The notes under the pieces were generated by a model. That model was given only the letters and a program-made list of their open reading frames with translations. It had not been told where the DNA came from and did no database searches. The position numbers and the translations under genes were made by a program. A stretch of DNA of 49,414 nt, from positions 1-49,414 of IMG/VR virus record IMGVR_UViG_3300008055_000177, one strand, 5' to 3'. This DNA is from a virus. Shown here piece by piece: positions 4,252 to 31,829 of this stretch; position 1 is the stretch's first letter; each line of letters starts with the position of its first letter.

Positions 4252-5841
4252 ATGACTATCATCGCAAAGCATGCACAAGTTTCAGAAATAATACGCTGCG
4301 GCAAAGATCCGGCGTATTTTATGAACAAGTATCTGAAAATTCAGCATCCCACGAGAGGTCTCATACCTTTTAAGACGTACAAGTTTCAAGATGATTGTGT
4401 TCAGAGCTTTAATGACCATCGCTTCAATATTATTCTAAAGTCTAGACAGCTAGGACTCTCTACGCTTGTTGCAGCATATGCAGTCTGGATGGCAGTCTTC
4501 TTCAAAGAGAAAAATATCTTAGTTATTGCAACTAAACTTTCAGTTGCACAAAACTTTATCAAGAAGATTAAAGTAGGTGTTAGAAATATGCCTAAATGGC
4601 TGCTGTTACCTGAAGTTATTGGTGACAACAAGCAGGCGCTTGAATTTAGCAACGGTTCAAGTATTAAAGCAGTACCAACATCAGATGATGCAGGCCGCTC
4701 AGAAGCTCTTTCTCTTCTAATAATTGACGAAGCTGCATTCATTCGAAACTTCGATGAGATCTTTACAGGTCTATATCCCACACTTTCAACGGGTGGTCGT
4801 GCGATTATTCTATCGACTCCTAATGGTGTCGGAGGACAGTACCATGAGCTTTGGGTCAATGCTGTTTCAAAAAAGAATGAGTTCAATCCTGTTAAGCTTC
4901 CATGGGATGTGCATCCTGATCGTGACGATCTATGGTTTGAAAATGAATGCAAAAATCTCACCAAGAAACAAATCGCCCAGGAGCTTTTATGCGACTTTGC
5001 CGCATCAGGCGATACTGTCTTAAACATTAATGATATTGAGTGGCTTGGCGCAAATATCAAGCGACCTATTGAGAGATGGGGACCGGAGATGGATGCTTGG
5101 GTATGGAAATACTCGCTCGCATCACACCAATATATAATTTCTGCAGATGTCTCTCGTGGAGACGCAAATGACTGCAGCACATTCCACGTAATTGATACGG
5201 GAGAGTCTGAGGTTGTTTGTGAATTTAAAGGACGATCGCCCCCAGATCAATTTGCAGCAGTTCTTGCCGAAGCAGGAAAGCGTTACAATAACGCGATGAT
5301 TTGCCCTGAGAATAACACTTTTGGTTACGCAGTAATCATGAAGCTCAGAGAGTTAGGCTATAAGAACCTCTATTTCCGCAACGAGAAAGACAAATACAAC
5401 GCATTATACGGTGGAGAGGTTGAAATTTCAAAAATTGGATTTTCAACTCAGGCACAGTCTAGGAACCAGATTCTTACAAAACTTGAACAAGTAATTAGAA
5501 ACAGAGAGATCAAGACATATTCATCTAGACTTTACGATGAGGCGAAGACGTTTGTTTGGCATGGAAATAAGGCACAGGCACACAAAGGATTCAATGACGA
5601 TCTAATAATGTCGCTAGCGATTGGTGTCTGGATTTATGAGACATCTCCTGTCAATAGCAAAACATCATATGACATAAACAAAGCAATGTTGCAAGGTTTT
5701 GCTGTCAATATTAGCCAAGATCTTCCAAGAAATTCTTTTGCTGGCTCCAGGAGCAATCCTTTCACGCCTGTTAATGTTGAAAATATAACAGGCAAGAGTG
5801 ATAAAAAGTCGGAACTCAATGATTTTAAGTGGCTCCTTTGA
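4252..5841 (+). CDS. Large terminase subunit (T4 gp17-like ATPase/nuclease)
   Basis: The 529-residue packaging motor pumps DNA through the portal and cuts it. N-terminal ATPase: a Walker A variant KSRQLGLST at 63-71 (the T4 type with R and Q before the loop), Walker B LLIIDEAAF around D159-E160, and coupling motif LSTPNG at 187-192. C-terminal RNase H-like nuclease: acidic residues D299 (ISADVSRG), E353 (CPENN) and D449/D450 (GFNDDLI). Length and order match gp17 (610 residues), slightly shortened. ATG 4252 has no strong ribosome-binding site; the gene is probably read on the same transcript as its upstream neighbour. The portal gene follows, the usual pairing in tailed phages. Confidence 0.97.
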   Translation: MTIIAKHAQVSEIIRCGKDPAYFMNKYLKIQHPTRGLIPFKTYKFQDDCVQSFNDHRFNIILKSRQLGLSTLVAAYAVWMAVFFKEKNILVIATKLSVAQNFIKKIKVGVRNMPKWLLLPEVIGDNKQALEFSNGSSIKAVPTSDDAGRSEALSLLIIDEAAFIRNFDEIFTGLYPTLSTGGRAIILSTPNGVGGQYHELWVNAVSKKNEFNPVKLPWDVHPDRDDLWFENECKNLTKKQIAQELLCDFAASGDTVLNINDIEWLGANIKRPIERWGPEMDAWVWKYSLASHQYIISADVSRGDANDCSTFHVIDTGESEVVCEFKGRSPPDQFAAVLAEAGKRYNNAMICPENNTFGYAVIMKLRELGYKNLYFRNEKDKYNALYGGEVEISKIGFSTQAQSRNQILTKLEQVIRNREIKTYSSRLYDEAKTFVWHGNKAQAHKGFNDDLIMSLAIGVWIYETSPVNSKTSYDINKAMLQGFAVNISQDLPRNSFAGSRSNPFTPVNVENITGKSDKKSELNDFKWLL

Positions 5842-5855
5842 TGACTATTTAAAAT

Positions 5856-5884
5856 TTGATCATACGGTATATTATAGATACAAT
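5856..5884 (+). promoter_or_regulatory. Candidate sigma70-like promoter for the portal operon
   Basis: In the 67-base gap after the terminase gene, TTGATC (5856-5861) and TACAAT (5879-5884) are 17 bases apart, matching the bacterial consensus at 4/6 and 5/6 positions. The start would fall near 5891, leaving a short leader that keeps the AAGGTGG ribosome-binding site of the portal gene. It is a pattern match only; phage-specific promoters could differ. Confidence 0.3.
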
Positions 5885-5908
5885 AAGTGTCAAAGGTGGT
5901 GATGTCTC

Positions 5909-7945
5909 ATGAAAAAAGAGAGAAGCTTATTTACTCGTCTTACAAAGCTTTTTCGTTCTGGGCCAGTAATAAAACGAAAAATTAGAAATCCTGACAGTAA
6001 ATCGAATTATGCATCTTCACTTGAGATTTTCAAGAGATCACACAGTGATGTCTACAGCAGCACACTTTCTGCATATGGATCCTATGATCGCATGTCAAGA
6101 TACAGTGATTTCGCCGAGATGGAGGCGACACCTGAGATCTCTTCGGCTCTCGATATCTACGCAGAAGAATGCGCAGCTGCTGATGACAAGGGCAGAGTTT
6201 TACACATTTACTCAGACAATCGAAAGATCAAAGAGATTCTAGAGACTCTTTTTCACGACACACTAAACATTGAGTTTAACCTCTCGATGTGGGTTAGAAA
6301 TCTCTGCAAATATGGAGACTTTTTCCTTTTTAATGATGTCCACCCTGAGTTTGGTGTTACGAACGCATTTCCAATCCCTATCTCTGAAATGGAGCGCGAA
6401 GAAGGTTTTGACAAGGATGACCCTTCAGCAGTTAGATTTCGCTGGATTTCACAGGGCAATCAAGTTCTAGAAAACTGGCAGGTCACACACATGCGACTGC
6501 TAGGAAATGACGCATTTTTGCCTTATGGATCCTCGGTTCTAGAGGGCGCAAGAAGAATTTGGAGACAGCTAATTCTCATCGAGGACGCAATGCTTGTCTA
6601 TCGCGTTGTCAGGTCTCCTGATCGGCGTGTCTTCTATATTGATGTCGGCAACGTTCCGCCTGAAGAGGTTGGAAATTATTTAGAGCAGGCTAAGACAGCG
6701 CTTAAGCGCAATCAGCTCATCGATAGATCTTCTGGAAGAGTCGACTTAAGATACAATCCAATGAGCGTCGATGAAGACTACTACCTCCCTGTAAGAGGAA
6801 GTGAGTCTGGCACAAAAATTGATACTCTTGCGGGCGGAACTAATGCTGCTGCCATTGAAGACGTGCAGTATATCCAGAAGAAGCTTTTTTCTGCGCTTAA
6901 AATTCCAAAAGCATATCTTGGATACGATGAAGACATTGGTGCCAAAGCAACTCTAGCGCAAGAAGACATTAGATTTTCTAGAACAATTTCTAGAATTCAA
7001 AAGACGATCATCGCAGAGCTCAACAAGATCGCAATGATTCACCTCTATATTCACGGATTTGACAGCGATGACCTTATTGATTTTGAACTAAGACTTTCAA
7101 ATCCTTCATCAATTGCACAACAACAGAAGCTAGAATTAATTAAGATGCGTTTTGAAATCGCCAGCGGAGTTCCAGAGGGCCTGGTGAGCAAAACATTTAT
7201 TCGAAAGAACATTCTAGAAATGTCTGATGAGCAGATTGAACAGATTCGCAAAGAGAGAATCAAGGACACAGACGAGGAGAAGGGCGTTGAAGTTGGAAGT
7301 CAGCCAGGCCCGGCAGGTGAATCTCCTCCAGCGGGAGGAGGCAGCGGAGAGGCCTCACCTTTTGGTAGTGAAGAGCCGGCCGCTGGAGGAGAAGAGGGCG
7401 AAGCAGGAGATCTTTTCTCAGGAGCAGTCAAGTCAGGTGATCTATTGATGACGACAGGCCCCAAAAAACTCAGCATTGCCTCAGAGTCACCTGATGACCT
7501 TTTTGAAGATGATATGATCGATGAGGAGGAGGATGACCTCGATGAAGTCGATCTATCAGAATATGATGACAGGCCTCCTCTTACACCGACAAATGAAGTA
7601 GGTCGAGGAACCAAGGGTGGACGTGGTCGTAGAGGAAGGCCTAACAAGGGTCGCCGTGAAAGAATGGTTAATTTTGGAAAAATGCTCCGCAAAAACAATG
7701 AAGATGTTACGGGTCTCTCTGGAGTTACAAGTAGCACACTGGAATCTTTTGAGAGAAATCCATTCGATCAATTCTTAGAAAAAAGTGAATTTCAGCAGAC
7801 AAGAATGACAAGAGATGCAGAAACTTTACTACAGAAAATGAAAAATGGCTTACGTTTACAAAAGAAAGTCATACTTAGAGAAGGTAATGAGTCACATGAG
7901 AAACTTCGTCTAATTGATCTCATAGGTGCCGGAGATGATGAATAA
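5909..7945 (+). CDS. Portal protein (T4 gp20-like)
   Basis: The 678-residue protein should form the dodecameric ring at the capsid vertex through which DNA is packaged and ejected, and where prohead assembly starts. The N-terminal two thirds carry gp20-type sequence: SRYSDFAEMEATPEISSALDI near residue 65, KYGDFFLF near 135, and the clip/stem region with ALKIPKAYLGYDEDIGAKATLA around 330-350. The last third is unusual: a Gly/Pro/Glu-rich segment (about 460-515), then a strongly acidic stretch with DEEEDDLDEVDLSEYDD, then a basic Arg/Gly stretch (GRGRRGRPNKGRR). These make the protein longer than T4 gp20 (524 residues) and may be disordered or interact with core proteins or DNA. ATG 5909 follows AAAGGTGGTGATG. 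The 3' end overlaps the next gene. Confidence 0.95.
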   Translation: MKKERSLFTRLTKLFRSGPVIKRKIRNPDSKSNYASSLEIFKRSHSDVYSSTLSAYGSYDRMSRYSDFAEMEATPEISSALDIYAEECAAADDKGRVLHIYSDNRKIKEILETLFHDTLNIEFNLSMWVRNLCKYGDFFLFNDVHPEFGVTNAFPIPISEMEREEGFDKDDPSAVRFRWISQGNQVLENWQVTHMRLLGNDAFLPYGSSVLEGARRIWRQLILIEDAMLVYRVVRSPDRRVFYIDVGNVPPEEVGNYLEQAKTALKRNQLIDRSSGRVDLRYNPMSVDEDYYLPVRGSESGTKIDTLAGGTNAAAIEDVQYIQKKLFSALKIPKAYLGYDEDIGAKATLAQEDIRFSRTISRIQKTIIAELNKIAMIHLYIHGFDSDDLIDFELRLSNPSSIAQQQKLELIKMRFEIASGVPEGLVSKTFIRKNILEMSDEQIEQIRKERIKDTDEEKGVEVGSQPGPAGESPPAGGGSGEASPFGSEEPAAGGEEGEAGDLFSGAVKSGDLLMTTGPKKLSIASESPDDLFEDDMIDEEEDDLDEVDLSEYDDRPPLTPTNEVGRGTKGGRGRRGRPNKGRRERMVNFGKMLRKNNEDVTGLSGVTSSTLESFERNPFDQFLEKSEFQQTRMTRDAETLLQKMKNGLRLQKKVILREGNESHEKLRLIDLIGAGDDE

Positions 7946-8792
7946 AAAGACAACGCATAATAAGAAGCGAAATGTTGGCATTATTTACGAACAGCTAATG
8001 CGAAAGATTTCAGAGCACATTGTCGATGGTGACAATGATAGTGCAATCAAAGTTGTTAATATTGTCAAAAAACATTTCAAACCAGGCACTGAGCTCTACA
8101 AAGAATTTCGTCTTTTTAATGCACTAGTTAAAACACAAGTTTCTTCTAGTGAAATTGCAGCAAAAATTCTTGTAGAAGCACGAGAAGCAGCCAAAGATCA
8201 CAACAGCGTGAAATTGATGCAAGAAAAATCACGTCTCATCAAGGAAATTAATCATACAATTTCTAGCCATGATTTTTATACAACAAGAGTTCCGGAGTAC
8301 AGAACTTATGCGACGATCCAGACGCTGATGAATGACTGGCGTGACACAAAGACTCGTGATATTTCAAGAATTGCAATTTTTGAAGACAAGATTCACGGCT
8401 GGCTTTTAGAGCCTAAGAGTCATTTGGCAATTAATGAACTTAAGACAGAGAACGTTGACAATCTTGTTGTTAGCGTGATGAGAGATAAACTAAACAAGAA
8501 ATATGAGTCAATTTTGACTCCTAAGCAGATGGTTCTAGTCAAAGAGCATGCGCTTAGAGAGGCAAATGGTGAGTCCTTTACAAGCTATCTTGATAGTGTT
8601 ATCAAAGAGTCTTTAAAAAACATTAAAGACTACCGGAAGACATGCGGGAGTTCATATGTCGAATCTAAAATTCCAAATGTCGTAAATCTTATAGAGTCAC
8701 TAAATCCAGGCGATCACAGTGATCAAAATATTGCCAAATTTATGACTGTTCTTAAGCTTTGTGATGAAATCACAGGGGGCAAAGATGAGTAA
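7935..8792 (+). CDS. Conserved-looking head-region protein between portal and protease (possible prohead core protein)
   Basis: I place the start at ATG 7935, overlapping the last 11 bases of the portal gene, with AGGTG seven to eleven bases upstream; a GTG at 7926 is the longer option. The product of about 285 residues is basic at the N-terminus (KKTTHNKKRN), then mostly helical and charged, with no membrane segment or catalytic motif. In T4 the slot between portal and protease holds the small core proteins gp67 and gp68. This protein is much larger, so it is only a positional counterpart. It overlaps the protease gene by 8 bases, which points to translational coupling of portal, this protein and protease. 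A role in prohead initiation or core is inferred from position alone. Confidence 0.75.
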   Translation: MMNKKTTHNKKRNVGIIYEQLMRKISEHIVDGDNDSAIKVVNIVKKHFKPGTELYKEFRLFNALVKTQVSSSEIAAKILVEAREAAKDHNSVKLMQEKSRLIKEINHTISSHDFYTTRVPEYRTYATIQTLMNDWRDTKTRDISRIAIFEDKIHGWLLEPKSHLAINELKTENVDNLVVSVMRDKLNKKYESILTPKQMVLVKEHALREANGESFTSYLDSVIKESLKNIKDYRKTCGSSYVESKIPNVVNLIESLNPGDHSDQNIAKFMTVLKLCDEITGGKDE

Positions 8793-9390
8793 ACAACTTC
8801 TAACAGAATGGCAGAACTTTGAGTATTCAAAGGACATGATTGTCGAGTCTAGAGAAAAGAACAACGGCAAAATTATTCTCAAGGGAATACTCCAGAAGTC
8901 TGATACTCTAAACCAGAATGGTCGTATTTATCCTGAACATATTCTCTCGAGAGAAGTTAGAAACTACCAAAAGTTCATTAATGAAAATCGAGCATTAGGA
9001 GAGTGTGATCATCCAGAGAGCTCTGTTGTTGAGCTTAAGAATGTTTCCCACATTGTTAGATCTGCATATATGCAGGGTGGAACATGTTACGGAACCGTCG
9101 AACTTCTGGACACACCCTCAGGCAAAATTCTACAGAGCCTTGTTGAGACAGGAATTACACTTGGAATCTCTTCTAGAGGCGTCGGATCGACAAAGTCTGT
9201 AGGTGAACATCAAGTAGTGCAAGATGACTTCCAGCTAATTTGTTGGGACTTTGTCAGTGAGCCTTCAACTCCGGGAGCTTTTATGATGAAAGAGGGCAGA
9301 AGAATCTCAGAAAATGATCTTCGCCGTCACTTTACTAAGTCAGATAGAGTTGATAGAATTTTTAATGAAATTCTAGGCTGGAAGGAATAA
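8785..9390 (+). CDS. Prohead maturation serine protease (T4 gp21-like)
   Basis: Start chosen at ATG 8785, preceded by AGGGGGCAAAG; a longer GTG start at 8761 would run into the upstream gene. The 201-residue product fits the T4 gp21 / herpesvirus-assemblin-like protease fold: NGRIYP near 45-50, the catalytic histidine in GECDHPES (H76) and the serine in GISSRGVGS (S129 or S130). In T4 this enzyme sits in the prohead core and cuts scaffold, capsid and internal proteins after (L/I)-x-E, then itself. The N-terminus here (KQLLTEWQ) resembles that of T4 gp21 and contains L-T-E. Likely substrates in this window are the capsid protein and the four L-x-E-tagged proteins described in the findings. Confidence 0.93.
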   Translation: MSKQLLTEWQNFEYSKDMIVESREKNNGKIILKGILQKSDTLNQNGRIYPEHILSREVRNYQKFINENRALGECDHPESSVVELKNVSHIVRSAYMQGGTCYGTVELLDTPSGKILQSLVETGITLGISSRGVGSTKSVGEHQVVQDDFQLICWDFVSEPSTPGAFMMKEGRRISENDLRRHFTKSDRVDRIFNEILGWKE

Positions 9391-9391
9391 T

Positions 9392-9760
9392 ATGGCAAAT
9401 CAACACGTGTATTCGCATCATAACAATGCTGCAGAATACCAGACTTCATCGATACCTTTCGTAAAGACACTATCAATTGCCGACGGTGATCTTACAAGAG
9501 TGTCTTTCCCATTTATTACAAGATTCATTGTTATTAACACAGATCAGGATCTTAAGCTTCTTTTTAGTGCTACAGGAGAAGCTACTGATAATTATTTTGT
9601 CGTTGCAACAGGTACATCTCCTCGTCTAGAGATTAAGTGTCGTGAATTCTGGATTAAGAATGATTCTGGTGGCGCGGCAATTGCTAGCGTCTTGGCTGGA
9701 CTTACAAACATTCCTTACAGTCAGTTTCCTAATCTGGCTGGAATTCCTGGGATCGGGTGA
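9392..9760 (+). CDS. Small beta-rich virion protein, possibly capsid decoration or head fibre
   Basis: The 122-residue product starts at ATG 9392 behind GAAGGAATAAT, one base after the protease stop. It alternates hydrophobic and polar residues (FIVINTD, LKLLFSA, NYFVVATG, LEIKCREFWIKND) in the way of a small beta-sandwich, ends in a Gly/Pro-rich tail (NLAGIPGIG), and has no membrane segment or signal peptide. Its place among head genes and a general resemblance to small phage surface proteins suggest a virion role. No family was firmly recognised. Confidence 0.6.
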   Translation: MANQHVYSHHNNAAEYQTSSIPFVKTLSIADGDLTRVSFPFITRFIVINTDQDLKLLFSATGEATDNYFVVATGTSPRLEIKCREFWIKNDSGGAAIASVLAGLTNIPYSQFPNLAGIPGIG

Positions 9761-9769
9761 CAGGTAGTC

Positions 9770-10228
9770 ATGACAAGAAACGATCTTAAAAACATTGTAA
9801 AAGAATGTCTCGTTGAAATTCTTAGCGAGGGCATTGGTAATTCAAACAAAATTCAAGAGTCAAAAAAGGCTGCGACCGTGGCCCCTTCGAAGCCCCAAGA
9901 GAGAAGCTTGCAGGAAATGCTCAAGATGAAGCAGAATATTGCAAACAAGACACAGTACGGAAATCCAGCTGTTAAAAAGCCTGATCCTATGGCGGCAAAT
10001 AATTTAGTTAAATCTGTCACCAATGATGCTGTGATGGCTGCTCTTTTTGCAGACACGATAGAGACAACCCTGCAAGAGCAGGTTGAAAACGACAGAAGAC
10101 TTCTTCGTGGGCACTCTACAGATGATGATGCTTCTAGTGATTTGCCTGTCGGTGGCGGCGGATTTAGCGAAGAAATGTCAAGGCATTGGTCTGCATTGGC
10201 ATTTAATGAAGTAAAAAAGCAAAAATAA
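9770..10228 (+). CDS. Head-region protein with candidate capsid-targeting propeptide (L-S-E site)
   Basis: The 152-residue product begins MTRNDLKNIVKECLVEILSEG: a helix with alternating hydrophobic and charged residues ending in L18-S-E20, which matches the (L/I)-x-E rule of T4 gp21-type proteases. The pattern (L/V)-(K/R)-x-I-(I/V)-(K/R) recurs at the N-terminus of the products at 10287, 15898 and 16809. The rest is polar, lysine-rich in the middle and has a Gly stretch near the end (VGGGGFSE); no enzyme motif is seen. Removal of the first 20 residues would leave a protein of about 132 residues inside the mature head. Packaging is inferred, not shown. The start is ATG 9770, nine bases after the upstream stop, with CAGGTAG ahead as a weak site. 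Confidence 0.7.
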   Translation: MTRNDLKNIVKECLVEILSEGIGNSNKIQESKKAATVAPSKPQERSLQEMLKMKQNIANKTQYGNPAVKKPDPMAANNLVKSVTNDAVMAALFADTIETTLQEQVENDRRLLRGHSTDDDASSDLPVGGGGFSEEMSRHWSALAFNEVKKQK

Positions 10229-10242
10229 TATTAAGATATCGT

Positions 10243-10270
10243 TCGACATCCATAAGTAATTTTATATACT
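10243..10270 (+). promoter_or_regulatory. Candidate sigma70-like promoter upstream of small core-region gene
   Basis: TCGACA (10243-10248) and TATACT (10265-10270), 16 bases apart, each match the bacterial consensus at 5/6 positions in the 58-base gap before ATG 10287. The start would fall close to the TGGAG ribosome-binding site, leaving a very short leader, which weakens the call. Confidence 0.25.
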
Positions 10271-10286
10271 GTTTAGTGGAGAATTT

Positions 10287-10565
10287 ATGCCTAAGCTGTT
10301 AACACCTGATGTACTTCGTAGAATCATTCTTGAGGAAAAAGAGCGTCTTCTTAGAGAGAGCGACCCATTTATGGATGGAATCAGCGATGTCGAAAAGGTT
10401 GAGGCTGAAGAAGTTGAGCCTGAAGACTTGGCTGATACACTTGCCAAAGAGATTGATCACATTAAGGCACTCAAGATCAAAGAGTCTAAGCTTGTGAATG
10501 AAGTGAGAGCTGTAAGAGAGGCTCAAAATATTCTTCGCAAGAGAGTTTTAAAGAAACTCTCATAA
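10287..10565 (+). CDS. Small acidic helical protein, possible prohead core component, with L-R-E propeptide site
   Basis: The 92-residue product starts at ATG 10287 behind GTGGAG. Its N-terminus has VLRRIILEEKERLLRES, with L22-R-E24 as a candidate prohead-protease site and I14-L-E16 as another. The middle is acidic (KVEAEEVEPEDL) and the C-terminal half is a charged helix with heptad-like spacing (IDHIKALKIKESKL...VRAVREAQNIL). Small, charged, helical proteins in this position in T4 (gp67, gp68, internal proteins) are core components that the protease cuts to peptides. That role is inferred from position, composition and the propeptide-like start. Confidence 0.7.
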   Translation: MPKLLTPDVLRRIILEEKERLLRESDPFMDGISDVEKVEAEEVEPEDLADTLAKEIDHIKALKIKESKLVNEVRAVREAQNILRKRVLKKLS

Positions 10566-10586
10566 TAACAAAACAGGGAGACTAAT

Positions 10587-11063
10587 ATGCCTACGCATAG
10601 ACAAAATACAACAGAGGCCGTAGTAACAGAGAGAAGTCTTGGCAAGTCTGCTTCTAATGCTCTTAGGGCGGCATTTTCAAATTCCCCTCTTTATAATGGC
10701 GAATGGTCGGATGCAGCAGTTCATGCCTACTGGGTTGAGAACGTGCAGGAAAGGGCGATCAATGACGGAGGTCATACCTTTGGGCTGTTTGTTCAGAACT
10801 ACAAGGATGCACCAGATCCTGAAGATGTCAGGACCGGAGGTGGAGGACGTCCTGCAGGTCCTTTCGTTCCTACGACTGCCTCACCAGGTGTTGAAGGGTC
10901 AATTAACCCATATGACATCCCAGAAGTGCCTCCAACGCCTAGGACAAATATTTACGGCACCGGTCCTGGTATTTCTTTGACACCCAAAGATGCTTCAAAA
11001 AATATTTCGAAGGGTACACTTGGCTCGTACCTCATGGGCAAAAGCGGCGGCGTTCCCGAATAA
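10587..11063 (+). CDS. Hypothetical head-region protein with Pro/Gly-rich C-terminal half
   Basis: The 158-residue product starts at ATG 10587 behind AGGGAGACTAAT. The N-terminal half is compact with aromatic residues (WSDAAVHAYWVENVQERA); the C-terminal half is rich in Pro, Gly, Thr and Ser (RTGGGGRPAGPFVPTT and EVPPTPRTN) and probably disordered. There is no membrane segment, enzyme motif or cysteine. It lies in the run of small genes between protease and scaffold, so a virion or assembly role is likely, but I do not recognise the family. A stable hairpin begins 8 bases after its stop codon. Confidence 0.6.
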   Translation: MPTHRQNTTEAVVTERSLGKSASNALRAAFSNSPLYNGEWSDAAVHAYWVENVQERAINDGGHTFGLFVQNYKDAPDPEDVRTGGGGRPAGPFVPTTASPGVEGSINPYDIPEVPPTPRTNIYGTGPGISLTPKDASKNISKGTLGSYLMGKSGGVPE

Positions 11064-11067
11064 TTAA

Positions 11068-11712
11068 ATGAAGACGCACCTTGACATTGATCATACAATA
11101 CTTAAGGTGCGTCTTTTTGAAAAGCTCTCATCTTATGGCAATAGAGCAGGATCATCTCCTAGCTTTAAAGACACGCGTAGCGATTTAGGCTACGGTAGAA
11201 TAACCAATAAGTGGCACGATGAAAGACAGGGAAATGCTTTTTTTCCTTATCTAGACCCTGTCGAAGACAGTGAAGAGGTCAATGATCTAAGTGATGATGA
11301 ATTTGACCTTGTCGATCTTATTTCAAAGAAGACTCATGCAGATATTGCAGTCAATGATCCGTATGACGGCTACAAAACAAATCCTTTTACTTTTGTAGGA
11401 AGCAATTCGAAGCTCTCAATTATTGATGGAGTTTATTACCCAGACAAAGTGCTTAGCGAAATTGCTGCAATGAATTCATCTATTGTCCCTATGCCTGGCA
11501 CTTGGAGAAAAGCAGTGAAAAGTGGTGGGCAGGGTGCATCTATCTATCTCACTGTCGCACATCCAGTTAGAACAGGAATGCTTAGAGGCTGGTCCAGTGC
11601 TCCATACGAGAATGATAATATTTATGACAATGTGGAAGAAAATGATGTCGAGGAAGAAGACGAAGATTTTCTTTCTATTTGGGATATTATAAAAAAAAAT
11701 GCAGTTTTTTAA
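11068..11712 (+). CDS. Hypothetical acidic protein; start uncertain
   Basis: The open frame gives 214 residues from ATG 11068, but that ATG lies four bases after the upstream stop, has no clear ribosome-binding site, and the first 16 codons form a 12-bp hairpin ending in T's. GTG 11107 (codon 14, VRLFEKLSS) is an alternative. The body has an acidic patch (EDSEEVNDLSDDEFDLVDL), a central folded-looking part with YYPDKVL and TWRKAV, and a very acidic end (VEENDVEEEDEDF). No known domain was recognised. Acidic proteins next to the scaffold gene are often prohead core parts, but this is only contextual. Confidence 0.55.
   Translation: MKTHLDIDHTILKVRLFEKLSSYGNRAGSSPSFKDTRSDLGYGRITNKWHDERQGNAFFPYLDPVEDSEEVNDLSDDEFDLVDLISKKTHADIAVNDPYDGYKTNPFTFVGSNSKLSIIDGVYYPDKVLSEIAAMNSSIVPMPGTWRKAVKSGGQGASIYLTVAHPVRTGMLRGWSSAPYENDNIYDNVEENDVEEEDEDFLSIWDIIKKNAVF
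11071..11118 (+). terminator. Perfect 12-bp hairpin with short T-run at the start of the 11068 frame
   Basis: AAGACGCACCTT (11071-11082) and AAGGTGCGTCTT (11104-11115) are perfect inverted repeats around a 21-base loop, followed by three more T's. The position directly after the 10587 gene fits a partial terminator; the overlap with the next coding frame fits a translational hairpin equally well. The large loop and short T-run make strong termination unlikely. Confidence 0.4.
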
Positions 11713-11798
11713 TTTTTTTTGATCAAATCAAATAAATTGTTTTTCTTGTGATAATTAAACATATAGAATTTGTCATTAGACATTGATGAGTGGAGACT

Positions 11799-13427
11799 AT
11801 GAGTCAAAATCTTTATATAGAATCAATTGCAGAAGCGCGTCAACTTCGCGAAATTGCAGAGGCCAATGCTCGTAATAAAATTATCGATGCAATTACGCCC
11901 CAGATACGCAAGCTTATTGAAAAGACGTTGCTCAATGATGACAGCTCAGAAGATGAAACGCCTGAGAGTTCTGAACTCATTATGAAGTCAGATGATGACT
12001 CTGGTGATTTAGGTCTAGAGCCCAGTGAGCCAAATCCACGCACTACTGACATAGAAGACATGGAAGATTCAGAAGATGAGCCTGAATCTATGGGAGCTTC
12101 TGGTGCGGCACAAATTAATGTTGATGATGGACATATTACATTAAAGCTCGGCGATGTCGAGGTTGTCGTCAAAGACAATTCAGGTGATGAGATTCAAAAG
12201 CTAAAAACTTTTGAGGGTGTAGAAGATCGTGCGACTTCCGGCAGCAATTTAAAGTCAACTGCGCATCGCGCGAAGATCTTCGAGATGAAGTGCAAACTTT
12301 TTAATATCATGCTCGAGAAAGAAATTAGAAGAGGCTTGAGCGTAAGTGATAAAGAAAAGCTTGTACAAATATTAGAAACTTTGCAGAGACAGGCAGTAAA
12401 ACTTAAGAGCGATGCAATACTTACTGAAGGTGGCTCAAAAGTTATTAAAAATTTAGACAAATTAATTAAGGAGATGAAAATGTCAAGGAAGCGCATGAAT
12501 AACAATGTCTTTGATTTCCTGTTTGAGATGGATGCAAATACCGAAGAGGGCATGAACTATGCAGAGTCCGCCGTGAACGAGGCCGACGAGGTAGAAGATG
12601 AAGAGGATCCTGAGATGCCTGAAGATGAAGAGTCTGAAGATGAAGAGACTGAAGATGAAGAGTCTGCACTCGACCCAGAGACAATTGCTGACCGGCTCGA
12701 AGCTCTCATCGGAGACATTAGAGGCGAGAAGGGTGACGAGAATGCCGAGAAGGGTGACGATCTTAAGCTAGGAGAGGGCACCCTCTATGAGATCGATGAG
12801 GCCGTCCTTCGTCGTGAGCTCCGCCGCATGAAGCGTCTTTCAGAGGCTACAAGTGGAGTCGAGGATCCTGACCACACAGCACGCGCATTCGGTGGTGGTG
12901 ACGTTGAGGACGAGATGTTCATCGACGTCGACGAGGAGACACTCCTCAATGTTTTGGCCGATGAGCTCGGCCGTGTTAAGTTCAAGGGCGGTCGTATGCA
13001 CGAGTCTGCCCCCAGAAGAGCAGTCCCACCTCAGCGTAACAATGAGACTGCAGCTCTACGCTCTAAGTTGAGAGAGTACGAGACAATGACAGAGTCAATG
13101 AAGGCACAGCTTGTTGAGATGAATCTTTTTAATGCAAAGCTCCTCTACGCCAACAAGCTCATGCAGAACAAGAATCTAACACAGAAGCAGCAGCGGGCAA
13201 TTGTTGAGGCGCTAGATAATGCCAAGACGCTCCGTGAGGCAAAGCTTCTTTACAAGAGCCTGACTGAATCCCTCAGCAAGGGCAGCGCACGTTCGCTGCA
13301 AGAGGGAAGCACACGGACGCTCGGATCGGCTTCCAGATCAACCCAGTCGGCGCAGGTTCGCCCGACATCCAATGGAGTTGAGGTAGATCGATGGGCAGTT
13401 CTTGCAGGCATTGCAAGCAAGAAATAA
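11799..13427 (+). CDS. Prohead scaffold/core protein, long form (T4 gp22-like by position)
   Basis: Start chosen at ATG 11799 (GTGGAGACT just upstream; a GTG at 11790 is a second choice), giving 542 residues. The gene lies immediately before the capsid gene, the slot of scaffold gp22. The protein is highly charged and helical with long acidic runs (EDEESEDEETEDEES) and a C-terminal coiled-coil-like part (ETAALRSKLREYETMTESM) rich in Glu, Lys and Gln, as expected of a scaffold that is degraded by the protease. The N-terminal 227 residues use AT-rich codons, while the part beyond about base 12530 shifts to the GC-richer codons of the capsid gene. It is twice the length of T4 gp22 (269 residues). 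A strong internal start at 12480 may give a short form. Confidence 0.8.
   Translation: MSQNLYIESIAEARQLREIAEANARNKIIDAITPQIRKLIEKTLLNDDSSEDETPESSELIMKSDDDSGDLGLEPSEPNPRTTDIEDMEDSEDEPESMGASGAAQINVDDGHITLKLGDVEVVVKDNSGDEIQKLKTFEGVEDRATSGSNLKSTAHRAKIFEMKCKLFNIMLEKEIRRGLSVSDKEKLVQILETLQRQAVKLKSDAILTEGGSKVIKNLDKLIKEMKMSRKRMNNNVFDFLFEMDANTEEGMNYAESAVNEADEVEDEEDPEMPEDEESEDEETEDEESALDPETIADRLEALIGDIRGEKGDENAEKGDDLKLGEGTLYEIDEAVLRRELRRMKRLSEATSGVEDPDHTARAFGGGDVEDEMFIDVDEETLLNVLADELGRVKFKGGRMHESAPRRAVPPQRNNETAALRSKLREYETMTESMKAQLVEMNLFNAKLLYANKLMQNKNLTQKQQRAIVEALDNAKTLREAKLLYKSLTESLSKGSARSLQEGSTRTLGSASRSTQSAQVRPTSNGVEVDRWAVLAGIASKK
12480..13427 (+). CDS. Candidate nested in-frame scaffold short form
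   Basis: ATG 12480 lies in frame within the scaffold gene and follows TTAAGGAG (12467-12474) with a 5-base spacer, the best ribosome-binding site in this stretch. Initiation here would give 315 residues, close to the 269 of T4 gp22, starting MSRKRMNNNVFDFLFEMD. The downstream half also has the GC-richer codon use of the capsid gene. Nested scaffold genes sharing a C-terminus are known in other phages (the lambda C/Nu3 arrangement). Here it is an inference from the site and the length; both forms may be made. Confidence 0.5.
   Translation: MSRKRMNNNVFDFLFEMDANTEEGMNYAESAVNEADEVEDEEDPEMPEDEESEDEETEDEESALDPETIADRLEALIGDIRGEKGDENAEKGDDLKLGEGTLYEIDEAVLRRELRRMKRLSEATSGVEDPDHTARAFGGGDVEDEMFIDVDEETLLNVLADELGRVKFKGGRMHESAPRRAVPPQRNNETAALRSKLREYETMTESMKAQLVEMNLFNAKLLYANKLMQNKNLTQKQQRAIVEALDNAKTLREAKLLYKSLTESLSKGSARSLQEGSTRTLGSASRSTQSAQVRPTSNGVEVDRWAVLAGIASKK
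12621..12665 (+). repeat. 15-bp tandem repeat x3 in scaffold gene (EDEES/EDEET)
   Basis: GAAGATGAAGAGTCT occurs at 12621-12635 and 12651-12665, with GAAGATGAAGAGACT between. It encodes an acidic stretch of the scaffold. A second pair, GAGAAGGGTGACGA at 12726-12739 and 12747-12760, repeats at 21 bases. Such in-frame repeats can change copy number by slippage without breaking the frame. Confidence 0.85.
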
Positions 13428-13468
13428 AAATCGCTAAACCAAAACTACAAGGATTAAGGAGAAATTTT

Positions 13469-15358
13469 ATGAGTTCATTTTCGTTAAATCAGCTGTCAGA
13501 GGGTATCCGTGAGAGACACCTCGGCACACAGAACAAGCGCCTCACAGAGAAGTGGTCGCGCACAGGTCTTCTCCGTGGCCTCGACGGCGTCAGCCGTGAG
13601 AACATGGCCCGCCTCCTCGAGAACCAGGCAGCTCAGGTTCTTCGCGAGGCCTCAACCCTGGCAGGTGGCCCTCCGGGCGGTGGTGACATCCGCGGTTTCA
13701 CCAACGTTGCATTCCCCATCGTTCGTCGCGTTTTCGGTGGCCTCGTTGCCAACGAGCTCGTGTCGATCCAGCCAATGAGCCTTCCTTCGGGTCTGCTCTT
13801 CTACCTCGATTACACCTATGGCACAGCCGTAGGCGGCGGTGCAGTCGTCGACGGCGCCGGCCTCGAAGGTGGTCGTACATACGCTACAGGAAGCTCAATC
13901 TACAACAATCCTGTTGGCAAGGGTGTCCAGAGCGGATCACTTGCAACAGGTGGTCAGTACGATCTCATCGGTTCGGGCTACTCACGTGTTCACAGCGGCA
14001 CTGTGATTGACGCCATCGACGCGACTGCCAAGGCCTTTGTCTTCCGTGGAACAAGCACAATTGACCTCGGCCCCGGCGTTGCTCATGCAACTGGAACAGA
14101 CGGCAAGCTCTTGCAGTTCGACCCACAGGTCACAGACCTCATCGAGTCTTCGAATGGCAAGTTCTTCTTCCTGGCAGTTCCTTTCAATACAGGAAGCTTC
14201 CCTAAGGCCGACCCCACCATGGTCAAGGACTACTCGATAGTTTTCGCCGCAGCGAAGAACGCTGGAACAACCCTTGTAAGAATTCCTGAAGCAATTCAGC
14301 CAGGCAGCGTGCTCAATGTAAGAAGGCTGAACCAGCTTGTGACATTCAACGGCACTTCTGTTGCTCCGGCACCAATGGCGACACAGAGTACTTCAAACGC
14401 TCACGTGCTGTTCGTCCTCTCAGGAACAGCGATCAACGCCGCCGATCACGACAACTTCCGCGTTTCATACCCGGTTTCATCACAGCTTGACGTTGGTCAG
14501 GGTGACACGCTGGTTATTCCAAGCTTTGAGTCATCGACAGCAGCACGTCTTCTCGATGCCGAGTCGCCCACAATCCCAGAGATCGACATCAAGATCGAGT
14601 CGCTGGCAGTCACAGCTCAGACCCGCAAGCTCAAGGCTCGTTGGTCGCCCGAGCTCGCACAGGACCTGAACGCTTACCACAGCCTTGACGCTGAGGTCGA
14701 GCTAACTCAGATCCTGTCAGAGCAGATTGCTCTAGAGCTTGACAGAGAGGTTCTCAACGATCTTCTCACACAGGCAAACGGTGCAAACTACTACTGGTCG
14801 CGCGCTCCCGGTCGATTCGTCAACAAGAACACTGGCGATGAGGCAGTTCGCAGCTCGTCACTCCACCCAGGACCCGCCTTCACAGGCACCGTCCGCGAGT
14901 GGTATGAGACTCTCGTCGAGACAATCATCGACGTTGCCAACACAATCCACCGCAAGACACTTCGTGGTTCGGCGAACTTCATCGTCGTCGGCCCCGATGT
15001 TGCCACAATCCTCGAGAGCTCGGTTTTCTACAAGCCCAGTTACACAATCGACGGTGAAGGCCAGATCTCGTCACCCATGACTCTCGGCACCGAGAAGATT
15101 GGTACGGTTTCGAACCGCTTCACAGTCTACAAGGACCCCTACTTCCCCCGCAACAAGATCCTTGTTGGTTACAAGGGCGGTAGCTACCTCGAGACAGGCT
15201 ATGTCTACGCTCCTTACGTTCCTCTCATCGTCACTCCCACCATCTTCGCACCAGACGATTTCACACCCCGTAAGGGCGTGATGACACGTTACGGCAAGAA
15301 GATGGTCCGCAGCGACTTCTACGGCACCGTGACACTGCTGGACATGAACATTATCTAA
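13469..15358 (+). CDS. Major capsid protein precursor (T4 gp23-like)
   Basis: Start set at ATG 13469, behind TTAAGGAGAAATTTT; the longer frame from 13391 overlaps the scaffold gene and has no site. The 629-residue precursor has the gp23 layout: a helical N-terminal region (about 1-60) ending in VLRE-ASTLAGG, which fits the (L/I)-x-E cut (after E60) made by the prohead protease in T4 at FLTE-AEIGG; then FPIVRRVFGGLVANELVSIQPM, the HK97-type core; and a conserved LKARWSPELAQDL segment near 415. The mature chain would be about 569 residues, longer than T4's, with a Gly/Ala-rich insertion after about 115. Codons are GC-richer than in most neighbours, as expected of the most abundant protein. A strong terminator follows. 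Confidence 0.95.
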   Translation: MSSFSLNQLSEGIRERHLGTQNKRLTEKWSRTGLLRGLDGVSRENMARLLENQAAQVLREASTLAGGPPGGGDIRGFTNVAFPIVRRVFGGLVANELVSIQPMSLPSGLLFYLDYTYGTAVGGGAVVDGAGLEGGRTYATGSSIYNNPVGKGVQSGSLATGGQYDLIGSGYSRVHSGTVIDAIDATAKAFVFRGTSTIDLGPGVAHATGTDGKLLQFDPQVTDLIESSNGKFFFLAVPFNTGSFPKADPTMVKDYSIVFAAAKNAGTTLVRIPEAIQPGSVLNVRRLNQLVTFNGTSVAPAPMATQSTSNAHVLFVLSGTAINAADHDNFRVSYPVSSQLDVGQGDTLVIPSFESSTAARLLDAESPTIPEIDIKIESLAVTAQTRKLKARWSPELAQDLNAYHSLDAEVELTQILSEQIALELDREVLNDLLTQANGANYYWSRAPGRFVNKNTGDEAVRSSSLHPGPAFTGTVREWYETLVETIIDVANTIHRKTLRGSANFIVVGPDVATILESSVFYKPSYTIDGEGQISSPMTLGTEKIGTVSNRFTVYKDPYFPRNKILVGYKGGSYLETGYVYAPYVPLIVTPTIFAPDDFTPRKGVMTRYGKKMVRSDFYGTVTLLDMNII

Positions 15359-15385
15359 TATTAGATAGTTTTCTTGTTCTTAGGG

Positions 15386-15414
15386 GGCAGACACTTTGTG
15401 TCTGCCTTTTTTTT
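15386..15414 (+). terminator. Intrinsic terminator after the major capsid gene
   Basis: GGCAGACAC (15386-15394), loop TTT, GTGTCTGCC (15398-15406), then eight T's. The 9-bp GC-rich stem and long T-run make this a strong terminator for the capsid transcript. Confidence 0.93.
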
Positions 15415-15431
15415 AATTCTAGAAAGAACAA

Positions 15432-15767
15432 ATGACTCGAAGAAGCAGAAATCAACCAAAATTATCTAAAGATCGCTGTGAGATCTGTAACTACAATAGA
15501 TCTGCAGCGATTAATTTTCACCACATTATTCCTCGATGTGATCCGCGATGTACGAATGATAATCATAATCTGGCTGTTGTTTGTCACTCATGCCATGATT
15601 TAATTCACGCAGGTGAGATCACTATAATCGGAGTCTATTTCACAACTGCAGGTAGAAAACTAATGTGGTTTAAAGATGGTGAAGATCCACCCTTAGAAAA
15701 AGAATTCTGGAGAGTTAAAAATAATCCGCTAGTTTTAAGAAAAAATATAAATTTAGTTAAGCATTGA
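15432..15767 (+). CDS. HNH endonuclease (probable free-standing homing endonuclease)
   Basis: The 111-residue product has a compact HNH nuclease: CEICN near residues 17-21, HHIIP near 31-35, NHNLAVVCHSCHDLIH near 45-60, with the paired Cys-x2-Cys of the zinc-stabilised class. Enzymes of this type nick or cut DNA; in phages they are often homing endonucleases that move themselves between genes, or packaging helpers. The gene stands alone between two strong terminators directly behind the capsid gene, away from the terminase, which favours the homing reading. Its ribosome-binding site is weak (AGAAAG). Confidence 0.85.
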   Translation: MTRRSRNQPKLSKDRCEICNYNRSAAINFHHIIPRCDPRCTNDNHNLAVVCHSCHDLIHAGEITIIGVYFTTAGRKLMWFKDGEDPPLEKEFWRVKNNPLVLRKNINLVKH

Positions 15768-15800
15768 TATACTTAAAAATAGATCAATTAATATAACTTT

Positions 15801-15826
15801 GGGGCCCATGTGGGCCCCTTTTTTTT
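15801..15826 (+). terminator. Intrinsic terminator after the HNH gene
   Basis: GGGGCCC (15801-15807), loop ATGT, GGGCCCC (15812-15818), then eight T's. It is a very stable stem and closes the HNH cassette. Confidence 0.93.
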
Positions 15827-15897
15827 AACTTACAATTCGTGTGTGATATTTAATGCTTGAATAGTGCTAATATTGCTCATTAAGATAGAGGATTTAA

Positions 15898-16809
15898 ATG
15901 TCATTTCTTAGCGAATCAAAGGTTAGAAAAATCATTAGAGATATTATTCTTAATGAGATCGCTAGATCAGATGGCAGTCTTGCTGGATTTTTAAATGTCC
16001 TTAATTCATACAAGGATCATACGTGGATATTTTTTGACACAGAGACAACAGGATTAAAACCCTGGGCTCGAAATTCTGGCAAAGAAGGCGGCCCACAATT
16101 AACACAGATTGCAGCAATTGCTGTCAAACCTGATTGGAATCCAGACGGTAATGGCGCGAATATTCTTGGATCTTTTAATAAAAAAATTAGCTTTACTGAA
16201 TACACAAGACAGCTAATGGATCCTAGCTCTATAGAGCGTCAAGAGTGGAACACCCAAGACCAAAAGCGTGGAAAACATGCGCTCGGCGATCCTCGAAAAC
16301 TCTTGAGTTTGACATCATATGGCGTAAGTAGAGGTAAATTTGATCCGGAGCAAGATGTCATAAATGAGTTTTTAGGCTTTATTTCAGATTACTCAAATCC
16401 GCTGCTAGTTGCACAAAATGCAAGTTTTGACATGAGATTTCTAAATGTTAGAAGCGGTGGAAGAATGCCTAAACTTCCTGTGCTAGACACACTAACTCTA
16501 ATCCAGCAGTATCTTTTTCCAGTTTTGACAGCTGCTGCCTCTTCAAGCAACCCTGATCCTGAGGCTTTACGCCTAATTGGGCTGCTTAAGAATCGCGAAA
16601 GACTTTCAGCATCCTTGGGTAATCTTTCAAAAGCATTTGACATCGAAGCATCAGGTTGGCATGACGCCCTAGAAGATGTTAAAATGTTGATGTCTGTCTA
16701 CGTTAGAACGATAGAAATATTAGAAAATCAAATGTCAAGTGACATTGATGCCACCAAACAAATTGGTGCAGCTTTATCTGCAGCACATAAAAAAGAGAGG
16801 AGTCGATAA
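15898..16809 (+). CDS. DEDDh 3'-5' exonuclease (DnaQ-like) with candidate capsid-targeting propeptide
   Basis: The 303-residue protein has all DEDDh exonuclease motifs: Exo I FFDTETTG with D47 and E49, Exo II QNASFD with D178, and Exo III HDALED with H255 and D260 (H-x-A-x2-D, so DnaQ/RNase T/ExoX type rather than the DEDDy proofreading type of family A polymerases). It should remove nucleotides from 3' ends of DNA or RNA. The first 20 residues (SKVRKIIRDIILNE) form a charged amphipathic helix ending in L18-N-E20, like three other head-region proteins here, and precede a Ser/Gly linker before the nuclease begins near 42. An insertion of about 65 residues lies between Exo I and Exo II. ATG 15898 follows AGAGGATTTAA. 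Position among head genes plus the L-x-E helix suggests it is packed in the capsid and enters the host with the DNA. A trans proofreading role is the alternative. Confidence 0.88.
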   Translation: MSFLSESKVRKIIRDIILNEIARSDGSLAGFLNVLNSYKDHTWIFFDTETTGLKPWARNSGKEGGPQLTQIAAIAVKPDWNPDGNGANILGSFNKKISFTEYTRQLMDPSSIERQEWNTQDQKRGKHALGDPRKLLSLTSYGVSRGKFDPEQDVINEFLGFISDYSNPLLVAQNASFDMRFLNVRSGGRMPKLPVLDTLTLIQQYLFPVLTAAASSSNPDPEALRLIGLLKNRERLSASLGNLSKAFDIEASGWHDALEDVKMLMSVYVRTIEILENQMSSDIDATKQIGAALSAAHKKERSR

Positions 16810-17114
16810 TGAAAATTTCAGAAAGAGACCTTAGAAGAATTATCAAAGAGGAGCTTAATTATTTAAATGAAGATGGTAAATCTAGATTTGGCGCCTTGGG
16901 AGATGCTGTTACAGCTGCATTTGGAAAATTGCCTGGATTAGAAAAATTATTTAACAAAGCAGCAAATCCCACTCAAGTTGCAGCAGTACTTGATGCAGTG
17001 ATAAATCAGTTAATTGATAACTTTGAAGATACAACCAAAGCTGAAGACTTCATTAAGGCTGCTGTAAAAAAAGTAATTGACGCTCGAAAAGCAGAGTCCA
17101 TGAAAAAGAAATAA
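16809..17114 (+). CDS. Small head-region protein with candidate capsid-targeting propeptide (L-N-E site)
   Basis: ATG 16809 overlaps the exonuclease stop by one base (TAATG) and follows AGAGAGGAG, so the two are translationally coupled. The 101-residue product begins MKISERDLRRIIKEELNYLNED, the clearest example of the shared helix, with L19-N-E21 as the candidate cut. The remaining 80 residues are mostly helical (FGALGDAVTAAFGKLPGLEKLF, then AVINQLIDNF) with a basic C-terminus (KKVIDARKAESMKKK). No enzyme motif is visible. After cleavage it would be a small basic internal protein, comparable in kind to the T4 internal proteins. This role is inferred. Confidence 0.75.
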   Translation: MKISERDLRRIIKEELNYLNEDGKSRFGALGDAVTAAFGKLPGLEKLFNKAANPTQVAAVLDAVINQLIDNFEDTTKAEDFIKAAVKKVIDARKAESMKKK

Positions 17115-17286
17115 TGGCTATTTAAAACAATAGAATTAAATTCTAGACGTTCTTATTGCCATATGAGTAATCTAGTAGATCTTGGTGCAAGAGTGTCTCC
17201 TTGAGTCATCTGGGCTGCTCTGTGTTAACAACTAAACAGCATTTGAGATAATCGTAATATACAGAAATAAATTGTTGGGAGAAATT

Positions 17287-17658
17287 ATGGCAAAGATGTC
17301 TAATAAAAATTATTTTGGGCGTGCGAAGAGAGATGATCTAGAGGTGATACAGGAGCCTGTTGTTGATGTCAAAAACGTGGCAGATAGATCGGAAGTCTTG
17401 GCATTAGTTGATGTACCAGAAATCAAGGATGAAATTCCTGCTGTTAAAAATTCACCTGCACCAACTGCTTCTAGTCCAGATGAGACAGAACAACTTGTTA
17501 AGAGAGTCGGTGAGCTTGAGACTCGAGTTCTCTTGCTTGAGAACAAACTTAAGACACTGATCAATGTGATCACTAAAGAAATGTCTGCTGGTCTAAAGCA
17601 GGGACCTGAGGGTTTGGCCCGTGCGATCAAGAACTCAGGAGTTCTTGACAATATTTAA
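17287..17658 (+). CDS. Hypothetical coiled-coil protein
   Basis: Start set at ATG 17287, 5 bases after TTGGGAG; a TTG at 17272 lies upstream of that site. The 123-residue product has a variable, Pro/Asp/Val-rich N-terminal half (about 15-65) and a heptad-patterned segment (VKRVGELETRVLLLENKLKTLINVI) at about 75-100, consistent with a short parallel coiled coil that could make it a trimer or dimer. It lies in the accessory head block. A trimeric surface or fibre-base protein would be plausible, but nothing proves it. Confidence 0.6.
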   Translation: MAKMSNKNYFGRAKRDDLEVIQEPVVDVKNVADRSEVLALVDVPEIKDEIPAVKNSPAPTASSPDETEQLVKRVGELETRVLLLENKLKTLINVITKEMSAGLKQGPEGLARAIKNSGVLDNI

Positions 17659-30446: not shown

Positions 30447-30471
30447 GGGCGCTCATTTGAGCGCCCTTTTT
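30447..30471 (+). terminator. Intrinsic terminator after the sheath genes, overlapping the end of the minus-strand gene
   Basis: GGGCGCTC (30447-30454), loop ATTT, GAGCGCCC (30459-30466), then five T's. The stem contains the TGA stop (30455-30453) of the convergent endonuclease gene. On the minus strand no T-run follows, so it acts mainly on the + strand. Confidence 0.92.
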
Positions 30472-31829
30472 ATTAGGACGCTGGCATCACATCCCCAAAT
30501 CTTCACAAGCACATCATCTAAATCTTGATGATCGTCATGACACATTTTGTGTCTCGGAAGCCTTTGATGACCGTCTGTCCACCAAAATCTGGGCTCTAGC
30601 ACATGATCTCTTATAAAGCCTGATTCTTCATAGATATGTCTAATTCCTAAGCGATCATCTACGACAGCGTAGATCTCGTTTTTGCAGATATTTTTGTCTA
30701 TAAAGTCTAGGAAGATCTCTAAGAGTATACTCGATTTTAATTCTGATATATTGCAAAATCTACACAGCTCAATCATCCCACTGTATTCCCGATGGCGGGG
30801 TTTGCGCAAAGAAGTAACTGCAATAATTTTATTATCTAGAAATATTCCGATATCATGTGTCGTATTTGTGTCACCCTCTAGATGATAAGTCTCTAGAAAA
30901 ATAGACTTTTGCTCCCTGTCTAACATCTTGAGCACAAGAGTCTCTGTGATGCTTAATTTTCTCTTATTCGTAATTGTGCCAATGTGATGCATGCATGCAT
31001 CTCGCTTGTCTCTCCACTCGTCTTCAAATAGATGAAGAAGATTAATATTTAGACTGTTGCAGTTTCTAGTTTTTTCTGCGTGATACAGTCTGTTCTTAAA
31101 CAGCTCAGAGTGGAAGTAGAGACCATTGTACTCTACAGCTGTCATAGATGACGGCATGTATATATCGATAACGTCAGGTGGAATGATATTATCACAGGAT
31201 ATGACGGTGTCAGGATCTAATGCTCTAACAGATCGATATAGCTCGATATGAGACTTTGCTCCCATGGGATCACATACATTACAAATGTTATTCAGCGCAT
31301 GCAATATGTTTTTCTGCTGAATATTTCCGCAGACTTTGCACTCAAGTGTTAAATGCATTAAGTCTAATGGGGTAGTTAAATTTTCAATGACCCTAAAATT
31401 CGGGGCGCAAAGCTCAACTTTTTCTTTTGCTTGTATGGCATTAATGCCTTGAATTCTTTGAAGACGAAGACATGTTTTCTTTGATTGTAGTGTTCTTCTT
31501 AGATTTAAAGACGCTCGCTCTAGAGAAGGAGAATCTTTGACTGTCTTACCTTTTGACCAGCCGCCTCTTTTTCTTTTTACTCTATTATCGACCACAGAGG
31601 TACTTTGTTTATTTCCATAGTTCGGTCGATTATGGCCTCTCACAAAAGGTCTGAAACCTTTGAACCATGATACAAACTTGGTTCTCTTATTGCACTTTCC
31701 ACATTTACAAACGGGCGCAATGCCATCGTGATACATCGCAATATAAGCAGCCTCAACACTCTCGAATCCATGCGTTGCAACATGTTCGGTCAAAGTATTA
31801 GTTTTTTTATTACACAAAGGACAAATCAT
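30453..31829 (-). CDS. Vsr-like (EDxHD / PD-(D/E)xK) free-standing homing endonuclease with zinc-finger N-terminus
   Basis: The 458-residue product is the only minus-strand gene. Its ATG (31829-31827) follows GAGGTCTGC. N-terminal knuckles CPLC, CKCGKC and later CKVC and CNVC suggest DNA-binding zinc ribbons, with a NUMOD-like GGWSKGKTVKDSPSLERA near 87-105. The catalytic part, DIYMPSSMTAVEYNGLYFH near residue 228, then HAEKTRNC and LLHLFEDEW, has the pattern of the very-short-patch-repair-like homing nucleases of phages (I-Bth0305I type). A C-terminal part of about 150 residues carries YEESGF. Such enzymes cut a target in a relative lacking the gene, so that repair copies the gene across. 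It sits between sheath and tube genes, opposite in direction, with its own late-type promoter. Confidence 0.82.
   Translation of the reverse strand: MICPLCNKKTNTLTEHVATHGFESVEAAYIAMYHDGIAPVCKCGKCNKRTKFVSWFKGFRPFVRGHNRPNYGNKQSTSVVDNRVKRKRGGWSKGKTVKDSPSLERASLNLRRTLQSKKTCLRLQRIQGINAIQAKEKVELCAPNFRVIENLTTPLDLMHLTLECKVCGNIQQKNILHALNNICNVCDPMGAKSHIELYRSVRALDPDTVISCDNIIPPDVIDIYMPSSMTAVEYNGLYFHSELFKNRLYHAEKTRNCNSLNINLLHLFEDEWRDKRDACMHHIGTITNKRKLSITETLVLKMLDREQKSIFLETYHLEGDTNTTHDIGIFLDNKIIAVTSLRKPRHREYSGMIELCRFCNISELKSSILLEIFLDFIDKNICKNEIYAVVDDRLGIRHIYEESGFIRDHVLEPRFWWTDGHQRLPRHKMCHDDHQDLDDVLVKIWGCDASVLIKRALK

Follow-up and report, generated by a model that had tools for sequence, protein, structure and literature searches.

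The DNA analysed here, referred to throughout as the window, is IMG/VR virus record IMGVR_UViG_3300008055_000177, a stretch of 49,414 bases in which 42 genes were called. It contains a T4-superfamily head-tail module that includes a terminase (4252), a portal (5909), a prohead protease (8785), a protein in the scaffold position (11799) and the major capsid protein (MCP, 13469), followed by tail genes. Four genes within the head part of this module, named by their start positions as 9770, 10287, 15898 and 16809, encode proteins that share an N-terminal helix ending in L-x-E, here called the tag (Table 1). In T4, a capsid-targeting sequence (CTS) is established and the gp21 protease cuts after L/I-X-E (PMC9026906). 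A sequence-only reading of the window had proposed that the four N-termini form a portable capsid-targeting propeptide. Translation confirms the four N-termini and their L-x-E ends, with lengths of 20, 24, 20 and 21 residues, and the bodies of the four proteins are unrelated, as that reading had claimed, with a best cross match of E = 2.4. The protease that it had placed in the same block belongs to Peptidase_S77, with a Pfam match of 84.9 bits against a family cut-off of 27.

Table 1. Head-module features and N-terminal tags in the window.
Feature	Coordinates	Strand	Evidence or description
S77 prohead protease, T4 gp21 family, predicted processing enzyme	8785..9390	+	PF03420 6.8e-24; phrog_207 4e-49
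Tag of gene 9770	9770..9829	+	Residues 1-20, MTRNDLKNIVKECLVEILSE then G; gene 9770-10228, just downstream of protease
Tag of gene 10287	10287..10358	+	Residues 1-24, MPKLLTPDVLRRIILEEKERLLRE then S; gene 10287-10565
Scaffold/core protein, gp22 position	11799..13427	+	Assigned by gene order
Major capsid protein, gp23 family	13469..15358	+	PF07068 1.5e-75
Tagged DEDDh 3'-5' exonuclease (DnaQ / RNase T / TREX-like)	15898..16809	+	PF00929 3.5e-10
Tag of gene 15898	15898..15957	+	Residues 1-20, MSFLSESKVRKIIRDIILNE then I
Tag of gene 16809	16809..16871	+	Residues 1-21, MKISERDLRRIIKEELNYLNE then D; gene 16809-17114

An 18-position hidden Markov model (HMM) made from 43 tags of other phages only, with no window tags, was used to score the first 32 residues of the 42 window proteins against chance. 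The tag of gene 16809 scored 30.0 bits, compared with 9.3 bits for the highest of 8,400 shuffles, and as a sequence match it certainly stands on its own score. This protein is an orphan, with no whole-protein relative in viral contigs and none among 80 phage relatives retrieved via the MCP. The tags of 10287 (6.0 bits, rank 2 of 42, 0.02 expected per 42 genes), 15898 (5.6 bits, rank 3, 0.04 expected at 5 bits or more) and 9770 (2.2 bits, rank 5, 0.39 expected at 2 bits or more) are marginal by HMM alone and therefore need family evidence, which is present for all three.

The family evidence for 9770 and 10287 comes from the 80 relatives, which the MCP search retrieved at 62-71% identity except for one identical short record. 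Homologs of 9770 occur in 33 distinct relatives, and in the family of 34 sequences E20 is conserved at 94% and G21 at 88%. A second hydrophobic-x-E, ending at E30, is also kept at 94%, and the linker between E20 and E30 varies in length. An AlphaFold2 model of 9770 places residues 3-23 in a helix with a predicted local distance difference test score (pLDDT) of ~94; the rest of the model is mostly of low confidence. Most of the 22 members of the 10287 family keep K-[LI]-T-x-x-x-L-[RK]-[RK]-[IL]-[IV]-x-[EQ]-E-[KR], a pattern that resembles the tag MKITKRQLKRIIREEK. The terminal [LIVM]-x-E is looser in this family than elsewhere, being present in 12 of 21 members compared with 3 of 21 in a control stretch. 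The neighbouring genes 10587 and 11068 served as a control. Both have an N-terminal hydrophobic-x-E in the window, and the E is kept in just 7% and 4% of their families; their N-termini were rejected as tags, and conservation of such a motif is thus not generic. Both 9770 and 10287 are conserved in the head module, and their products are more likely to be core components than cargo, with a role that by analogy probably resembles that of T4 gp67 and gp68.

Tagged genes extend well beyond the head region. Seven long relatives were retrieved in pieces and the tag was called by regular expression, which marked 31/341, 36/387, 25/344 and 14/298 genes (about 5-9%) in the four largest, compared with 22 of 3,061 overlapping spurious open reading frames in the same four. 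The tagged genes often lie in tandem arrays, such as ~18 genes across 42-60 kb of relative G006, and many are dispersed accessory genes; the restriction to head-region proteins suggested by the window alone does not hold. The 97 tagged proteins of the seven relatives fall into 79 clusters by their bodies, and 61 of the 97 join one cluster at full length because of the tag alone. The same N-terminal peptide is therefore carried by unrelated bodies in the relatives as it is in the window. Searched with a degenerate DNA pattern of the tag, IMG/VR gave at least 120 stretches, compared with 0 for a codon-scrambled version. The same tag pattern occurs in 8 stretches on five contigs among 85,000 genomes of bacteria and archaea, all in metagenome-assembled genomes. 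Among the matches listed for one of these, a 2-Mb genome, all tags lie on the one contig with an S77 gene; another has tags on three contigs, one of which contains an S77 gene and an adjacent 9770-like match. Identical tag residues use the same codon at frequencies of 0.63, 0.65 and 0.55, compared with 0.41, 0.48 and 0.36 predicted from genome codon usage, and this excess suggests that copying of tag DNA has probably contributed to its spread.

The end of the tag was analysed in 160 independent tags gathered by a pattern blind to residues after position 15. The motif [LIVMF]-x-E occurs within residues 16-30 in 128 of the 160, compared with 38 and 46 in downstream windows and 69 ± 5.5 (maximum 85) in shuffles. 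The terminal E is most frequent at positions 21-22, with a second, lower maximum at 27. The residue that follows it (P1') is enriched for A (2.2x), G (1.95x) and S (1.7x), with L, T, R, K and D low. Of a strict set of 47 tags taken from the relatives, 37 show the motif at roughly residues 16-30. The remaining 10 carry I-[IL]-x-E or I-I-x-E ending at residue 14, mostly with A, S, V, T or Q as the next residue. The end motif is thus retained across tag lengths that place the E at about 14, 22 or 27.

Gene 15898 provides a cargo on which different tags can be compared. Its catalytic residues D47, E49, D178, H255 and D260 are invariant and have the D-x-E, D, H, D order of DEDDh exonucleases, and its RNase H-like fold has the DnaQ domain 8h18 as best Foldseek match (1.0e-7). 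Residues 1-20 lie outside the confident fold with a pLDDT of ~44-51. Orthologs were searched without the first 25 residues and were found at 12 viral loci and in two huge phages, with differing N-terminal tags that all end in [LIV]-x-E. These tags include MKITETQLRRIIAESLIAE then I, MKITRRQLRSLIKEEIVRE then S, MIITKRALRSLISDIVLRE then S, MILSRKNLRMLIHDVMLKE then S, MILRYEQLNE then N, and MVSIKRFGQLNE then N. In a nine-sequence exonuclease alignment E20 is invariant and the sequence upstream of it is unconserved. Other homologs carry MKLKKYKQFIKE then S or MKIKNYIQFIKE then S, with an extra domain between tag and exonuclease, and these two tags resemble the T4 sequence MKTYQEFIAE then A. The long tag and T4-like tags have therefore been exchanged on the same cargo during evolution. 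No other result argues as strongly that the two types of tag may be functionally equivalent.

The enzyme predicted to remove the tag and its other probable substrates are encoded in the same module. The N-terminus of the protease has two conserved sites of its own, LLTE8 (E 91%) and MIVE21 (E 78%), the first of which is comparable with LIE-9 of T4 gp21 (PMC9026906). L58 and E60 of the MCP are invariant in 75 of 75 sequences and residue 59 is always R or K; a maturation cut is predicted after L58-R59-E60 (13640-13648), near the position of the T4 capsid cut, which releases a propeptide of 65 residues (PMC9026906). The protein in the scaffold position has no PHROG or Pfam match. It contains 19 [LI]-x-E sites, and those kept at 95% or more in 54 relatives include IAE20, IVE469, LRE479 and LQE501 (numbered from S11802). 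From this pattern it is predicted to be a multi-cut core protein, and it is a possible receptor for the tag.

The tag is associated with the S77 protease. Besides the window, S77 is present in all 13 tagged contigs of at least 100 kb, an observation that alone is weak, and was rejected as strong evidence, since 5 of 6 random contigs of that size also carry S77. Over all sizes S77 is present in 26 of 40 tagged contigs and 10 of 37 random contigs (p = 0.0013), and a profile search of 34 random contigs found tags in one, which has S77. Cultured phages were scanned with a profile of 18 rows, two of them window tags, because tblastn with short tag peptides is insensitive and returned nothing useful. 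The profile had no match in T4, KVP40, S-PM2, P-SSM2, HTVC008M, XacN1, SCTP-2, phiKZ, G or SPO1 and found no convincing tag array in the cultured phages, with weak matches in immuto, phiM12 and Mel-JY01.

Tag-like N-termini occur in Flavobacterium phage immuto, the nearest such phage in culture, in a gene run upstream of the terminase (4289-12036); they read VGKVNKAYIENIIKEILSE then K, MKKSQLRQIIKE then A, and MENFDLKKFLVE then N. The huge phages LR745206 and LR756502 and their relatives contain arrays of proteins that start with MK[HY]LKxFNE then S, or MKYLxxYKLFE then S. Judged by their sequence, these arrays are a second, short tag dialect resembling the T4 CTS. A loose regular expression for the short tag marked 28 of 261 genes in 200 kb of LR745206, compared with 4.3% internally, and about 15 of these are clear. 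Both phages have a weak, diverged S77-like match.

Tagged proteins fall into 17 PHROG families (kinases, ATPase, hydrolase, acetyltransferase and mostly unknown function), and no core replication or virion structural family is among them; one weak match is to a family of terminase small subunits. Untagged proteins matched for length fall into 63 PHROG families, among them UvsX, sigma factor, thymidylate synthase, head protease and baseplate. In Pfam, tagged proteins also match Zeta toxin-like, GNAT, HD and nucleotidyltransferase entries. Within the window, the probable cargo for delivery into the next cell comprises 15898 and 16809. A 257 kb phage (G002) encodes about ten tagged paralogs that share a YRG...SWT...ExE pattern and in some cases are fused to LPxGLxVxGxLxL repeats. 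A reading of these paralogs as ADP-ribosyltransferases, parallel to T4 Alt, was unsupported by Pfam or PDB sequence searches and is a lead only.

It is very likely that the shared helix is a capsid-targeting propeptide, a longer and sequence-distinct counterpart of the T4 CTS that is removed by the prohead protease. The portable propeptide put forward from the window is supported by the unrelated bodies, the L-x-E ends with a small P1', the tag exchange, the phage-only distribution and the S77 association. We infer that during prohead assembly the helix would dock onto the scaffold or core, with the gp22-position protein, 9770 and 10287 as putative partners. The S77 protease would cut after the terminal (L/I/V/M)-x-E, as predicted for the MCP after L-[RK]-E. 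With the tag removed, the mature protein would remain in the head with the DNA and would be delivered into the next cell. We lean, by a smaller degree of confidence, toward a broader view in which a clade of large uncultured T4-related phages uses general signal-sequence loading of tens of proteins (to ~9% of genes), with lineage dialects exchanged on the same cargo. Several points weigh against the propeptide reading. Neither a virion proteome nor N-terminal sequencing was found for any phage with the tag, and a tag on up to ~9% of genes would be a large load to package. The strict motif is missing from residues 16-30 of about 20% of the independent tags, and the periodicity of an amphipathic helix with many L, I, K and E residues can yield L-x-E. 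Three of the four window tags reach just 2-6 bits with the tag HMM, and the profile misses the T4 CTS and gives nothing in most cultured T4-like phages tested. The frequency of S77 in random large contigs belongs with these points.

The same observations bear on three other explanations. The helix could be a peptide that docks packaged proteins on the scaffold or the inside of the capsid and is never cleaved, so that the proteins stay anchored and L-x-E is a stretch of helix instead of a cut site. The confidently predicted helix of 9770 and the incomplete occurrence of strict L-x-E in the 10287 family fit such a peptide, but it is improbable given the bias of P1' to A, G and S, the retention of the terminal E while exonuclease orthologs swap the tag sequence, the retention of the end motif at several tag lengths and the equality of that motif with the invariant MCP site. 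We regard as somewhat less probable still an address to a phage-made or host structure other than the head in the infected cell, such as a replication compartment, the membrane, the nucleoid or the ribosome. Such an address would account for the dispersed tagged accessory genes far from the head module in the relatives, at up to ~9% of genes; against it, the most conserved carriers, 9770 and 10287, lie in the head module by the protease, the exonuclease bears a T4-CTS-like tag in other phages, the end motif fits the T4 prohead-protease rule, and core replication proteins were not seen among the tagged proteins. The tandem arrays and the same-codon excess would be expected if the shared start were a by-product of gene birth, in which tandem duplication and recombination copy 5' ends onto new frames and the helix is functionless. 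This is the least probable of the three, since the amino-acid pattern and end motif persist over many contigs, the end motif persists on orthologs with different tags and prokaryotic genomes almost entirely lack the pattern.

A capsid-targeting propeptide of this kind has known parallels. The T4 CTS and its use for recognising injected proteins are already known (PMC9026906, PMC12373910). A scan of T4 recovers two proteins that start with MKTYQEFIAE then A, as in IPII and IPIII. The window-type tag resembles this CTS in being N-terminal, in its presence on unrelated proteins, in ending with (L/I)-x-E followed by a small residue and in occurring in the same lineages as S77. It is also, as was noted from the window alone, longer than the T4 tag (usually 20-27 residues compared with the 10 needed in IPIII) and different in sequence from MKTYQEFIAE; the tag profile has no match in T4, and the tag is therefore described as a functional counterpart and not as a sequence homolog. 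A further difference is that tens of proteins carry the tag, including conserved head-module proteins, whereas T4 has a handful. The T-even Ip1-Ip3 proteins are injected anti-restriction proteins that have only the packaging leader in common (PMC12373910), and the tagged proteins resemble them in being unrelated proteins from variable accessory loci. The recognisable cargo differs, being an exonuclease, kinase or Zeta-toxin-like ATPases, a GNAT acetyltransferase and an HD hydrolase rather than known GmrSD inhibitors. In the giant phages phiKZ and SPN3US, which have many internal proteins, head propeptides are also removed by a prohead protease that cuts after Glu in a short motif, although phiKZ has no match to the tag and its protease is a much diverged gp21 relative (PMC9026906). 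What is new here is the sequence and length of the tag, the tens of proteins that carry it in a single genome and the exchange, on one cargo, between it and T4-like tags. No earlier description of the tag was found in the literature searched, which covered few subscription papers or preprints. It was through the packaging leader that the injected anti-defence proteins of T-even phages were discovered. Should the tag have an equivalent function, sequence alone would identify hundreds of candidates for head delivery in large uncultured phages, nearly all of them of unknown function. An equivalent function would also suggest that capsid-targeting signals are lineage-specific dialects read by one protease family, an arrangement that would let cargo genes move between phages by a change of tag alone.

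Other features were also recorded. A small HNH-like protein rich in Cys and His (CEICNY...HHIIPRC...CHSCHDLIH) is encoded after the capsid gene at 15432-15767 and has 1 match in the 80 relatives. Microcystis phage Mel-JY01 has an annotated ribosomal protein S21 gene (17143-17370) between its prohead protease region and capsid gene. The sole minus-strand gene of the 42 called in the window (30453-31829) lies within the tail cluster, encodes a zinc-finger-like N-terminus (MICPLCNKK...) and is a possible mobile insertion.

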